A stretch of 64,000 nt of DNA from Maridesulfovibrio ferrireducens (GTDB taxonomy: Bacteria; Desulfobacterota; Desulfovibrionia; Desulfovibrionales; Desulfovibrionaceae): the NCBI RefSeq assembly GCF_016342405.1, contig NZ_JAEINN010000012.1:62001-126000 (forward strand). Reading direction: 5' to 3'. The notes below the pieces were generated by a model. The model saw nothing but the letters and a program-made list of their open reading frames with translations, ran no database searches and was not told the DNA's origin. Positions 3-3,898 of this stretch are shown here, in pieces (position 1 is the stretch's first letter; the number at the start of each line of letters is the position of its first letter). Made by a program: the position numbers and the translations under genes.

Positions 3-1046
3 GTTGGCACCATAGAAAAAATTATTGGTGATTCAATGGCTGGTGCCATGCTTCTGAACAAGGGACTTCCTGCGGCGGTGACCCCTTATTATCTGGGAGT
101 CGTAGCCTCTTCCGGTACAGCGGGGCTTCGGCGCTGTATAGAACCGACCGTACATGAATTTATGGCTGATACGAATGAAAGTGTCGATCCTCTCGGGGAG
201 GAAGGGCACATGGTTGCTCCCGGATTAGTACATAGATATCCCGATCGTGTGTTGTTTCTGGTGACAGATTATTGTTCTACATATTGCCGTTATTGTACGC
301 GTTCCAGGCTGGTCGGTAAAACTGGACGTCCTCATTCTATGAAGAAGTGGAAAAGTGCGATTGCGTACATTAAAAGAACTCCCGTTATACGTGATGTTCT
401 TTTGTCAGGCGGAGATCCGCTGACTCTTCCGGATGAAAAGCTGGATTGGTTGTTGACTGAATTGCGCGCCATTCCACATGTGGAAATTGTCCGTATCGGA
501 ACTAAAGTACCGGCTGTTTTGCCTCAGCGCATTACTCCGGAATTAGTGGCAATGCTTAGAAAGCATCATCCGCTTTTCATGAGTTTACATTTTACTCATC
601 CAGATGAGCTGACTGCTGAAACAGCAAAAGCATGTGCCATGTTGGCGGATGCAGGTATTCCACTGGGAAGTCAGACTGTTCTTTTGAAAGATGTGAATGA
701 TGATGTTGATACCATGAAAAAGTTGATGCAGGGACTACTCAAGGTCAGAGTTCGCCCTTATTACTTGTATCAGTGTGATCCGATACCCGGCTCAGCCCAT
801 TTCAGAACCCGGGTGGAAAAAGGTCTGGAAATTATACAGGGACTCAGAGGCCATACTTCCGGTTACGCAGTTCCCAATTATGTGATTGATGCTCCCGGAG
901 GAGGAGGTAAAATTCCGCTTCTGCCTGAGTATTATGTGGGTAGAGATGAAAAAGGTGTTCTTCTTAGGAATTACGAAGGCAATATATACAATTACCCTGA
1001 TCCAGAGCCGAATGCTGAAGCATGTCTTGGGTCATTGAGGGCATAA
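3..1046 (+). CDS. KamA/AblA-family radical SAM aminomutase (5' partial)
   Basis: Radical SAM, PLP-dependent enzyme of the lysine 2,3-aminomutase family, which moves an alpha-amino group to the beta carbon. The reading frame is open to the left edge, so the true start lies upstream. Counting from the first in-window ATG (position 36), the 4Fe-4S motif CxxxCxxC is at residues 80-87 (CSTYCRYC), followed by LSGGDPL. The PLP-binding lysine motif PGGGGK is at about residue 292. It ends 1 base before an ATP-grasp gene, so it is the first visible gene of a coupled cluster. The substrate cannot be told from sequence: lysine is the family default, but the neighbouring genes suggest a dedicated pathway rather than lysine fermentation or EF-P modification. 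Confidence 0.88.
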   Translation, partial: VGTIEKIIGDSMAGAMLLNKGLPAAVTPYYLGVVASSGTAGLRRCIEPTVHEFMADTNESVDPLGEEGHMVAPGLVHRYPDRVLFLVTDYCSTYCRYCTRSRLVGKTGRPHSMKKWKSAIAYIKRTPVIRDVLLSGGDPLTLPDEKLDWLLTELRAIPHVEIVRIGTKVPAVLPQRITPELVAMLRKHHPLFMSLHFTHPDELTAETAKACAMLADAGIPLGSQTVLLKDVNDDVDTMKKLMQGLLKVRVRPYYLYQCDPIPGSAHFRTRVEKGLEIIQGLRGHTSGYAVPNYVIDAPGGGGKIPLLPEYYVGRDEKGVLLRNYEGNIYNYPDPEPNAEACLGSLRA

Positions 1047-1047
1047 A

Positions 1048-2049
1048 ATGAAAATAGGCATGACATACGATCTCAAAGACGACTACCTTAAACGGGGTTT
1101 GTCTTATGAAGAGGCCGCAGAATTCGATTCCGAAGTGACTATTGCAGGAATCGAGAACGTTTTAAAAAAAAGCGGTCACACCGTGGACCGTATCGGGAAT
1201 ATCACTGATCTGGTGTCCCGGCTCGCGTCAGGCGGAACATGGGATATGGTCTTTAATATTGCTGAAGGCCTTAAAGGTCTCGGCCGTGAAGCTCAGGTTC
1301 CGGCTTTGCTGGACGCGTGGGGTATTCCTTATACTTTTTCCGGCCCTGAACTGATGTCATTAACCTTACACAAAGCCATGACAAACGCCGTGGTGCGCTC
1401 TTTGGGAGTCGCAACTGCGGATAATTTTCTGGTCAGAAATGTGGAAGAAATTTCGCTCGTGAATCTTCCGTTTCCGCTTTTTGCCAAACCGGTAGCGGAA
1501 GGCACGAGTAAGGGGATCAGCAGCCGGTCTTTGCTTCATAATAAAGCCGGACTTCGGAGTATCTGTACTGAACTGCTTGAAAATTTCAAACAGCCTGTTT
1601 TGGTGGAAACATTTTTGCCAGGCCGCGAGTTCACAGTAGGTTTGCTTGGCAGCGGAAGTGACAGCCGGATTGCCGGAGTCATTGAAGTCGCGGCTGTCGG
1701 AAAAGGCGATTCTTCTGCATATACTTATGAGAATAAGCAGGAATGGAAGGATCGGGTTTCTTACGAACTTGTTGATGATGAAGCCGCTATGAGTGCTGCT
1801 TCGTTAGCTATTAAAGCATGGCGCGGTATGGGATGTCTTGATGCCGGACGAGTAGACGTTCGTCTAGGACGGGATGGAGCTCCCAGATTTATCGAGGTTA
1901 ATCCCCTTCCGGGGTTGAATCCCGAAAGCTCAGACCTTCCCATTCTGTGGGCTCTTGGCGGTGGCAAATATGAAAGTTTAATTAAAGAAATTTTACACTC
2001 CGCAATCCTTCGTCAGGGGCGGGTAGAAGCCTACAGGGGCGCTGCATAA
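1048..2049 (+). CDS. D-Ala-D-Ala ligase-like ATP-grasp protein 1
   Basis: ATP-grasp carboxylate-amine ligase of 333 aa related to D-alanine-D-alanine ligase. Visible signatures are the Ddl-like segment FNIAEGLKG in the N-terminal third, a glycine-rich EGTSKGI nucleotide-binding loop, and the Mg-ATP site segment FIEVNPLPGLNP near the C-terminus. Such enzymes activate a carboxylate as an acyl phosphate and join it to an amine. It starts 1 base after the aminomutase stop and its stop overlaps the start of a second ATP-grasp gene (TAATG), so the genes are translationally coupled. It is unlikely to be the housekeeping Ddl because it sits with an aminomutase, a paralogue and an acetyltransferase. 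Substrates are unknown. Confidence 0.85.
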   Translation: MKIGMTYDLKDDYLKRGLSYEEAAEFDSEVTIAGIENVLKKSGHTVDRIGNITDLVSRLASGGTWDMVFNIAEGLKGLGREAQVPALLDAWGIPYTFSGPELMSLTLHKAMTNAVVRSLGVATADNFLVRNVEEISLVNLPFPLFAKPVAEGTSKGISSRSLLHNKAGLRSICTELLENFKQPVLVETFLPGREFTVGLLGSGSDSRIAGVIEVAAVGKGDSSAYTYENKQEWKDRVSYELVDDEAAMSAASLAIKAWRGMGCLDAGRVDVRLGRDGAPRFIEVNPLPGLNPESSDLPILWALGGGKYESLIKEILHSAILRQGRVEAYRGAA

Positions 2050-3047
2050 TGAAAAAGATTGCCGCAATTGTGCGAAATCACGTTTCCCCCAACGCTTCGA
2101 TGGATGTTCAGGACGTAATCAATCAAAGTCGTTTCGTGAGTCGAGTGCTTCGCGAACAGGGCTGGAGCGTTGTTGAAGTGGAACTGGGCACTGATATAGG
2201 AGAGGTTGTGTCTACATTGCGGGGAATCAGGCCATATGTTGTTTTCAACCTCGTTGAAAGTTTCATGGGCTCGGATGAGTTAGCTAGCATGGCTCCTGTG
2301 ATATTCAGGAATCTAGGACTGTCATATACAGGAGCGGAAAGTCCTGTGCTGTTTATGACCAATGACAAGTTAGCCGCTAAACGTCATATGCTGTCTGTTG
2401 CTTTGCCGACTCCGTTCGGACTTGATGAAATAGGGCTTAAACGAGGACGTTTTAACCGTCCGGGGCGCTACATAATTAAAAGCCGATACGAACATGCTTC
2501 CCTTGGACTCGATGAAACGTCAGTGGTTTACGCCGAGAAAGCCGAAGATCTTCTTGCGGCAATGGACGACCAAAGGTCGCGGTTGGGCGGTTTCTGTATT
2601 GCTGAGGAGTTTATTGCTGGGCGTGAATTCAGTGTTTCTCTCCTTGAATCACCCAATGGAGAGTGCCTGATTCTCGGTTCTGCTGAAATTGCTTTCAGAG
2701 CCGACATGCCTGTGAAAATCGTCGGCTATGAAGCAAAGTGGGAAGAAGGCTCTGACGCGGATAAATCCACTGTCAGAGGGTTTGGGTTTCGTAAAGCGGA
2801 GCCTGAGTTGTCACGTCTTCTGGAAAAAACTGCGTTTGATTGCTGGGAGGAGATGGGACTCAGCGGGTATGCCCGTGTTGATTTCCGGGTTGATGATAAG
2901 GGGAGTGTTTACATCATTGATGTTAATGCCAACCCGTGTCTCTCGGAAGATGCGGGATTCATAGCGACGGCAATAGAAGTTGGCTGGAAATCTGAGGCTG
3001 TCATTTCCGCAATCGTAAAAAGTGCTTTAGGAAGATATGCAAATTAA
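2049..3047 (+). CDS. D-Ala-D-Ala ligase-like ATP-grasp protein 2
   Basis: Second ATP-grasp ligase of the cluster, 332 aa, sharing only the general fold with its neighbour. Signatures include VVFNLVES in the N-terminal part, TNDKLAAKRHM preceding the ATP-grasp domain, the IAEEFIAGREFSVSLL strand and the metal-ATP site IDVNANPCLSEDAG near the C-terminus. Its ATG uses the last base of the preceding stop codon and its own end overlaps the acetyltransferase by 11 bases. Two consecutive, diverged ligases suggest two successive amide- or ester-forming steps, or a heterodimeric ligase. The substrate is not predictable from sequence. Confidence 0.85.
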   Translation: MKKIAAIVRNHVSPNASMDVQDVINQSRFVSRVLREQGWSVVEVELGTDIGEVVSTLRGIRPYVVFNLVESFMGSDELASMAPVIFRNLGLSYTGAESPVLFMTNDKLAAKRHMLSVALPTPFGLDEIGLKRGRFNRPGRYIIKSRYEHASLGLDETSVVYAEKAEDLLAAMDDQRSRLGGFCIAEEFIAGREFSVSLLESPNGECLILGSAEIAFRADMPVKIVGYEAKWEEGSDADKSTVRGFGFRKAEPELSRLLEKTAFDCWEEMGLSGYARVDFRVDDKGSVYIIDVNANPCLSEDAGFIATAIEVGWKSEAVISAIVKSALGRYAN

Positions 3048-3582
3048 ACGAAATTGCGCGGATATAGTCACTCCTGAAGTTTTGCCCTATGAGATTTGTT
3101 TTTTGACTGAACTTGTTTTCGATGATGTCAAAAAACTTTGTTCAATGACTGCTCAGACAGGCTTTTTCTCAGAAGAGGAAGTGCTGATTGTTGAAGAGTT
3201 GGCATGGGCTTCCATTTCCGAAGGAGAGAAAAGTGGTTATCACTTTTTGCTGGTCCTCCCGCAGCATGAGGGGGGTGCAAATCCTTTAGGATTTGCCTGT
3301 TACGGGCCGATTCCGGGAACAAAAGACAGCTGGGATCTTTATTGGATTGTAGTTGATGAAAAAGTTCAGGGATGCGGATACGGCAGAAGAATTATCAAGG
3401 AAGTTGAGAGCCGTATACGGGCTGTTGACGGAAGAAAAATATTCTTGGAAACATCATCCCGAGAAGAATACTCTTCAACCAGAGGCTTCTATGAGTCCAG
3501 TGGCTATGTATTGGAATCCCGTCTTTTGGATTATTATGACCGTGGCGAAGATTGTATAATATTTGTAAAAGAACTGATCTAA
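3037..3582 (+). CDS. GNAT-family N-acetyltransferase
   Basis: Acetyl-CoA-dependent N-acyltransferase of 181 aa. The GNAT pyrophosphate-binding motif Q-x-x-G-x-G is at residues 111-116 (QGCGYG), preceded by the LYWIVVD beta strand. The C-terminal FYESSGY segment is typical of the acceptor-side helix and strand. The start overlaps the end of the preceding ATP-grasp gene and has AGGAAG just upstream. An acetyltransferase beside a KamA homologue recalls the ablA-ablB pair that makes N-epsilon-acetyl-beta-lysine, but the two intervening ATP-grasp genes make this a different pathway. The acceptor amine is unknown. Confidence 0.8.
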   Translation: MQIKRNCADIVTPEVLPYEICFLTELVFDDVKKLCSMTAQTGFFSEEEVLIVEELAWASISEGEKSGYHFLLVLPQHEGGANPLGFACYGPIPGTKDSWDLYWIVVDEKVQGCGYGRRIIKEVESRIRAVDGRKIFLETSSREEYSSTRGFYESSGYVLESRLLDYYDRGEDCIIFVKELI

Positions 3583-3622: not shown

Positions 3623-3898
3623 ATGAAAAAAACAAATGGACTGACAAAAATTTGCGGACGAGTTTTACCGTGGGAAAAGAGTCCTGAAGATTCTTATCTG
3701 CTTATGATCGCAACGGATGAAAATGAGCACCTTGTGGTTGATCAGACTAATGCCGGAATAGACTTGGAAGATTACGTAGGCGACTGGGTTGATGCTTCTG
3801 GCGTAATTAGAAAAGGTGAAAGTTGTCTGCGCATTTGCGTACACTCTTTTCAGGTTTCCGACGAAGACGATTGGGACGAGGAAGATGACGGCTGGTAG
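3623..3898 (+). CDS. small acidic hypothetical protein
   Basis: Protein of 91 aa with no family I recognise. It has alternating hydrophobic strands (residues about 10-75, for example LLMIATDEN, WVDASGVI) compatible with a small beta-barrel such as an OB fold, and ends in an Asp/Glu-rich tail (about residues 80-91). There is no signal peptide or membrane segment. AGAGAT precedes the ATG. It follows the acetyltransferase by 40 bases in the same direction and is directly followed by a terminator, so it probably ends the transcription unit. No function can be assigned. Confidence 0.6.
   Translation: MKKTNGLTKICGRVLPWEKSPEDSYLLMIATDENEHLVVDQTNAGIDLEDYVGDWVDASGVIRKGESCLRICVHSFQVSDEDDWDEEDDGW

Follow-up and report, generated by a model that had tools for sequence, protein, structure and literature searches.

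Several described pathways build on the enzymes considered here. The ablA-ablB pair, the usual route to N-acetyl-beta-lysine, couples a KamA-type lysine 2,3-aminomutase to a GNAT acetyltransferase, while the KamA-family enzyme EpmB supplies the beta-lysylation of EF-P. Among ATP-grasp enzymes, the Ddl-type ligases phosphorylate a carboxylate that is then attacked by an amine, and the synthesis of N-acetylglutaminylglutamine amide combines an ATP-grasp ligase with a GNAT. Conserved neighbourhoods of ATP-grasp amidoligases with amino-acid-modifying enzymes were reportedly catalogued by Iyer and colleagues in 2009. Here we describe a cluster at the start of a 64,000-nucleotide stretch (the window) of the Maridesulfovibrio ferrireducens genome (assembly GCF_016342405.1, contig NZ_JAEINN010000012.1, positions 62,001 to 126,000), in which genes for a KamA-type enzyme, two successive Ddl-like ATP-grasp ligases (AG1 and AG2) and a GNAT follow one another on the same strand (Table 1). 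We class the cluster with the ATP-grasp peptide pathways, apart from ablA-ablB, and we propose with moderate confidence that it is an operon for a small intracellular acetylated beta-lysine amide.

The first-pass annotation of the window knew of no described product for this exact combination of genes, and our literature search likewise gave none. It returned no paper pairing '3-aminomutase' with 'ATP-grasp' and no recognised description of the cluster, with the limit that the Iyer catalogue, which we have not read, may list the neighbourhood as a prediction.

A conserved four-gene core

The open reading frames and their translations bear out the four genes, their motifs (CxxxCxxC, PGGGGK and QGCGYG) and their tight spacing as first annotated: KamA and AG1 are separated by 1 base, AG1 and AG2 overlap in a TAATG, and AG2 and the GNAT overlap by 11 bases. 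The start codon of KamA lies 198 bases 5' of window base 3, and the full gene (L009:11805-13046 at the window locus) encodes 413 amino acids.

Table 1. Features of the cluster, in window coordinates
Feature	Position	Strand	Basis or remark
KamA-family radical SAM 2,3-aminomutase, distinct from AblA	3..1046	+	open 5' in window
AG1, ATP-grasp ligase of Ddl fold	1048..2049	+	Pfam
AG2, second Ddl-like ATP-grasp ligase, old AG1 paralog	2049..3047	+	Pfam, profile match
GNAT acetyltransferase, PDB 2r7h family	3037..3582	+	family profile
Acidic 91-residue small protein, possibly final operon gene	3623..3898	+	open reading frame; without Pfam family

The same gene order, which the first-pass annotation had proposed to look for in other genomes, recurs across phyla and is exact in 70 of 121 AG1 loci. 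The remaining 51 comprise 26 that are cut by contig ends, as judged by set flank limits, and 25 that differ or carry an extra match; the window's own locus is counted among the latter, having the right order with the nearby Ddl as an extra match. Named-organism loci were taken as the best 80 of 573 from one scan, nearly all of them metagenome-assembled genomes (MAGs) with taxon labels that may be wrong; they extend the range to Bacteroidota, Spirochaetota, Planctomycetota, Aminicenantes, WOR-3 and others. Sufficient flank on both sides of AG1 is available in 46 of the 80, and in 39 of the 46 KamA is encoded upstream, and AG2 and the GNAT downstream, all on one strand (L103, L115, L148, L164, L165, L166 and L182 deviate). 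Within the phylum, AG1 is present in 118 of 297 genomes at E<=1e-25 and in 104 at E<=1e-40, a strict count that excludes 14 genomes with weaker matches. In a sample of 58 relatives, own genome included, it is found in 20 at E<=1e-80; a 21st match (4e-23) was dropped as a probable Ddl.

KamA as the apparent partner of the ligases

The cluster KamA combines the Radical_SAM and LAM_C domains (Pfam) and scores above the cut-off of the KamA family (TIGR00238, 312.3 bits against 199.2). The full protein remains under the curated cut-off for AblA (TIGR03820, 463.4 bits against 525.4), and the cut-offs for EpmB (TIGR03821, 233 bits against 369.3) and for the glutamate and arginine 2,3-aminomutases (TIGR04368 and TIGR04468, 416.7 and 351.6 bits against 650 and 600) are likewise unmet. 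A profile of the family matches the structure of lysine 2,3-aminomutase (2a5h) with E 1.2e-181, and the aspartates at the places of D293 and D330 of that enzyme, the CxxxCxxC motif and the lysine that binds pyridoxal phosphate are present in 144 of 144 KamA rows. The conserved Asp pair corresponds to the sites for the lysine side chain, and lysine 2,3-aminomutase activity is predicted from homology together with these residues.

Among 79 genomes of the phylum, KamA (E<=1e-60) is encoded by 30 of 30 that are AG1-positive, as against 22 of 49 others (Fisher 6e-8, ignoring phylogeny). Where the ligase locus is without KamA, a copy was found elsewhere in all 17 genomes tested, namely 15 from an AG1 sub-clade described below and two in which a single protein carries both ATP-grasp units. 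The trans copy of G311 is a partial match only (254 bits), two of the 17 ligase loci are truncated by a contig end immediately 5' of AG1, and no AblB lies in the flanks (<=1.5 kb) of the trans KamAs. G079, G091 and G117 show no KamA at the AG1 locus, yet have a KamA match in the genome; G169 and G267, with divergent and weak AG1 matches, stand outside the count. In a tree of 52 KamA rows, which samples 26 cluster KamAs and leaves out the partial match of G311, 15 trans KamAs and two cluster KamAs form a 100/100 group that is sister to the main cluster clade (97/94), the trans KamA of G352 falls inside the main cluster clade, and three AblB-linked AblAs form a separate 100/100 clade. Because of the trans copies, their placement in the tree and the 30 of 30 co-occurrence, KamA looks like the constant partner of the ligases. 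As a separate observation, a MerR-like protein of about 100 residues precedes the unlinked KamA in three of six loci viewed: L216, where the MerR_1 match is just under the cut-off, and L238 and L242, recognised by eye.

The two ATP-grasp ligases

Both ligases match Dala_Dala_lig_C (Pfam; AG1 1.1e-25, AG2 4.6e-16) and keep the ATP-grasp residues. AG1 has the Ddl fold (structures compared with VIA-align), and AG2 matches the AG1 profile with E 7.1e-53; the two form separate old clades in a rapidly built tree, many forks of which are weak. An identity as ordinary Ddl or vancomycin-type ligases was rejected for both, given the family cut-offs, the residues of the active site and a genuine Ddl of the host located 9 kb upstream of KamA (309 bits, cut-off 243). 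AG1 and AG2 remain below the cut-offs of TIGR01205 (107.7 and 64.6 bits against 245.65) and NF002378 (134.2 and 75.9 bits against 243); indeed, every listed Ddl/Van model misses its cut-off, for AG1 among the 25 of 29 matches listed and for AG2 in 18 of 18. At the place of DdlB H63 there is a Glu in 233 of 233 rows across the four groups compared, and at that of Tyr216 a Glu in 58% of the KamA-linked AG1s and a Trp in the other three groups. By alignment, the AG1 pocket is rich in acids (Glu25, Asp27 and Glu73), which would suit a substrate with extra amines. The first-pass annotation had allowed that the two ATP-grasp proteins might match a described family with another role and no linkage to KamA; we found them below the Ddl cut-offs and co-occurring with KamA.

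These affinities also bear on an alternative in which the ligases put beta-lysine on a macromolecule, either a protein, as EpmA does on EF-P, or a cell-wall precursor. The use of a KamA-family enzyme, EpmB, in EF-P modification offers a precedent, and the Ddl fold of AG1, with AG2 as its paralog, also speaks for it. Yet the cluster KamA is far under the EpmB cut-off, no EF-P or cell-wall gene is among the upstream open reading frames listed, and the host owns an ordinary Ddl, so that we regard this alternative as very improbable. A third, RimK-like ATP-grasp protein was observed beside AG1 in two loci (L102:2091-3050 and L096:6634-7557), one of which has KamA and the other an arginine decarboxylase.

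The GNAT and the separate ablA-ablB locus

The cluster GNAT matches Acetyltransf_1 (Pfam, 2.5e-9), and its family profile matches PDB 2r7h (2.3e-61, 209 bits). AblB (TIGR03827) gave no match to it at E<=1e-3. The host has an ablA-ablB pair elsewhere (C1:40687-42769), in which AblB (C1:40687-41484) adjoins another KamA, and because of this separate locus the cluster is not the usual N-acetyl-beta-lysine pathway. An identity of the cluster with ablAB was hence rejected, in agreement with the distinction first drawn from gene content: its KamA is below the AblA cut-off and in another clade, its GNAT is not AblB, and ablAB lies elsewhere in the genome.

An accessory GNAT-deacetylase fusion and an arginine decarboxylase-linked lineage

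Within the operon or immediately next to it, 23 of the 121 loci encode a protein of some 570 to 750 residues, with a GNAT-like N-terminal half and a C-terminal domain of the histone deacetylase family; a 24th match (L080), a 136-residue piece on the opposite strand, was not counted. Hist_deacetyl (Pfam) is present in 6 of 6 fusion proteins scanned, while NCBIfam gave no model at E<=1e-3 for three copies. The catalytic motifs HH and EGGY are kept in 34 of 34 sequences and the strict DxDxH pattern in 29 of 34, and the nearest solved structures of the deacetylase half are the acetylpolyamine amidohydrolases 9gkz (2.2e-74) and 6phr (5e-70). The full-length fusion occurs in 16 of the 58 relatives, that is in 16 of 20 AG1-positive and 0 of 38 AG1-negative genomes (p 6e-11, ignoring phylogeny); in 10 of the 16 carriers it lies far from AG1 or on another contig. 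About a quarter of the AG1-positive genomes in the phylum sample encode the fusion. Of its 27 carriers there, all but one are AG1-positive; the exception, G129, has KamA and AG2 but just a fragment of AG1. The four genes are the core and the fusion is accessory. Further gene fusions link the parts into one pathway: AG2 is joined to the GNAT in L076 and L101, two ATP-grasp units share one protein in L087 and L088, and the GNAT-deacetylase is fused to a GNAT in L091 and L172.

A sub-clade of 18 AG1 rows has a different genomic context: 13 are linked to an upstream gene for a pyruvoyl arginine decarboxylase, often together with agmatinase and a deoxyhypusine-synthase-like gene, three have KamA at the locus, and two have neither, their contig breaking off shortly before AG1. 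A swap of substrate, with the decarboxylase as full replacement of KamA, was considered and dropped because all 17 genomes tested proved to have KamA in trans. A second alternative takes the product to be a beta-lysyl conjugate of a polyamine (or agmatine), with the ligases loading beta-lysine or another acyl group and acetylation being switched by the GNAT and the amidohydrolase-like domain. It accords with the decarboxylase-linked loci, with KamA being retained in trans in their genomes, with the closest relatives of the deacetylase half, and with the AG1 residue at the place of Ddl Leu282, which differs by context (Asp in 97% of KamA-linked versus Cys in 13 of 13 decarboxylase-linked proteins). 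However, the window genome has no polyamine gene next to the cluster, matches to such genes are near only two KamA-type loci and distant there (L175, L180), the decarboxylase-linked AG1s all belong to the one 18-row clade, so that the arrangement may have a single origin, and the 27 fusion carriers include none of the 15 tested genomes of this lineage. We therefore judge a polyamine conjugate unlikely as the product of the cluster.

The arginine decarboxylase lineage and the acetylpolyamine-amidohydrolase half do point to polyamine-like chemistry. The boldest reading, which we hold to be unlikely, is that these loci reveal an unrecognised, widespread class of primary metabolites in bacteria, in which the two ligases join beta-lysine to a polyamine or to amino acids and the acetyltransferase-deacetylase switches the charge of the compound; such a metabolite would act much like a polyamine that can be acetylated and deacetylated. 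Neither the fusion nor this lineage had been anticipated in the first-pass annotation, whose reading of the cluster as a dedicated set of KamA, two ATP-grasp ligases and a GNAT did hold.

Proposed pathway

In the acetylated beta-lysine amide reading, which we prefer, KamA would convert L-lysine to L-beta-lysine, as its homology and conserved lysine-binding residues suggest. AG1 and AG2, judging from their Ddl-type fold, would then form two ATP-driven amide bonds between beta-lysine and one or two amino acids or amines, and beta-lysine could enter the ligation on either side. The GNAT would acetylate an amine of the intermediate or the product. In genomes that have the fusion, this protein probably both attaches acetyl groups and takes them off, and these might serve as protecting groups in ligation or adjust the product's charge. 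Among the neighbours in the 121 loci, which were named largely by eye, no exporter or peptidase keeps a constant position next to the operon, and this weakly favours a solute or stress metabolite inside the cell over a secreted antibiotic. ABC-type ATPases are near nine of these loci, at differing distances, and L143 has a transporter-like gene inside the operon.

A narrower form of this reading, whose likelihood overlaps with that of the wider one, holds that the product is a compatible solute for salt stress, an acetylated beta-lysine dipeptide akin to N-acetyl-beta-lysine or N-acetylglutaminylglutamine amide. N-epsilon-acetyl-beta-lysine is an osmolyte (PMC3543383), the window genome has genes for an MscS channel and CorA upstream of the cluster, and AblB is present in 16 of 20 AG1-positive versus 15 of 38 AG1-negative relatives (p 0.005, ignoring phylogeny). 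In contrast, MscS is not a recurrent neighbour, and among 17 genomes of the same genus, own included, AG1 is present in two while AblB is present in 15. A salt-specific distribution of the cluster is also unsupported by the record titles among the best 80 of 573 loci, which include MAGs from fen, freshwater lake and groundwater. A role specifically in salt stress is thus possible, if on balance not probable.

Several observations weigh against the preferred pathway of beta-lysine amide synthesis. Arginine decarboxylase rather than KamA stands beside AG1 in 13 loci, and another amine may hence serve as a substrate too. The deepest forks of the KamA tree are weak (60/59), 6 of the 26 cluster KamAs fall outside the joint clade, and some of these six are accompanied by the G091 trans KamA (L230), which groups with L082, near L089, L090 and L101, elsewhere in the tree. 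Four loci with enough flank (L115, L164, L165 and L182) are without a detected downstream GNAT, or without both AG2 and GNAT, and L112 carries AG1 with no KamA within 8 kb upstream. The relative G036 (L066) keeps KamA and AG1 alone at the locus, its further genomic matches to the AG2 profile being weak, and judging from it AG2 and the GNAT may be dispensable. The co-occurrence tests ignore phylogeny. The fusion was not detected in 78 of 104 AG1-positive genomes of the phylum at E<=1e-100, nor in the window's own genome; in the latter the absence is real and not an assembly gap, because one continuous contig spans the place that is syntenic with that of the congener G014 (about 0.7 kb in the host as against about 4 kb). 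As an aside, G036 is perhaps a natural minimal version of the system.

Neighbouring genes and regulation

The 7.8 kb upstream of the operon hold genes for a sigma-54 regulator, two small proteins, an MscS channel, a DUF389 protein, CorA and a 105-residue protein. In the first-pass annotation, a complete lysine fermentation or EF-P modification pathway upstream would have counted against its reading; no gene for either is present in these 7.8 kb, although a genome-wide search for EpmA or lysine fermentation was not made. Three of the upstream genes, for the MscS channel, the DUF389 membrane protein and CorA, form a divergent block (L009:4546-9219), and CorA is near the operon in three further loci (L084, L107 and L152). 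From the sigma-54 activator (L009:9450-10877, with a weak match to a receiver domain), the order on the contig continues with proteins of 102 and 127 residues, KamA, AG1, AG2, the GNAT and the 91-residue protein.

Regulators matching this activator with more than 300 bits are present in 18 loci, 17 of them distinct since the window locus appears twice (L009 and L205). Sigma-54-like sites upstream of KamA are not enriched in loci with the regulator (8 of 18 versus 6.2 expected) or without it (20 of 86 versus 21.5 expected), in sets that include a few duplicate own-genome loci. Sigma-54 control of the operon was set aside, and a sigma-54-like site at L009:11077 is suggestive only.

Three small acidic proteins flank the core: the 102-residue (L009:11101-11409) and 127-residue (L009:11387-11770) proteins upstream, the latter with a signal-like N-terminus, and the 91-residue protein downstream (window 3623-3898). 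A Pfam scan gave no family for any of the three; by eye they share a similar pattern and may be small OB-like domains. A clear copy of the 91-residue protein (170 bits) is found only at the operon of the congener G014 (L063), with weak matches in L066 and L071. Other recurrent neighbours, mostly downstream of the operon, are a Pit-type phosphate transporter (nine loci, by eye), DUF47 (seven) and a diaminopimelate/ornithine-type decarboxylase (eight), as in L113, L117, L118 and others, many of them from Syntrophaceae.

Comparison with known systems

Roughly one in three of the phylum genomes sampled has AG1, as do genomes of other phyla, without a described product having been found. The proteins of the cluster are liable to misnaming, the ligases as D-alanine ligases and the GNAT as a D-alanine acetyltransferase, the title of PDB 2r7h. 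Because the core is defined by four genes and has a constant partner enzyme, its product lends itself to a direct test; the system could extend bacterial physiology by a beta-amino-acid metabolite and assign a role to the GNAT-deacetylase fusion.

With ablA-ablB the cluster shares a KamA-type lysine 2,3-aminomutase and a GNAT, but it adds two ligases, its KamA belongs to another clade and its GNAT is not AblB. AG1 shares the fold of the Ddl/Van ligases, and both AG1 and AG2 share their ATP-grasp residues; they differ in falling below the listed cut-offs, in the Glu at the H63 place and in the changed Tyr216 place. The N-acetylglutaminylglutamine amide pathway likewise combines an ATP-grasp ligase with a GNAT, to which the cluster adds KamA and a second ligase; an asparagine-synthetase-like gene was not noticed at the cluster. 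The type of neighbourhood is reportedly like that of the ATP-grasp pathways catalogued in 2009. Against this background, what is newly seen here is the accessory GNAT-deacetylase fusion; a sister lineage has arginine decarboxylase genes next to its ligases.

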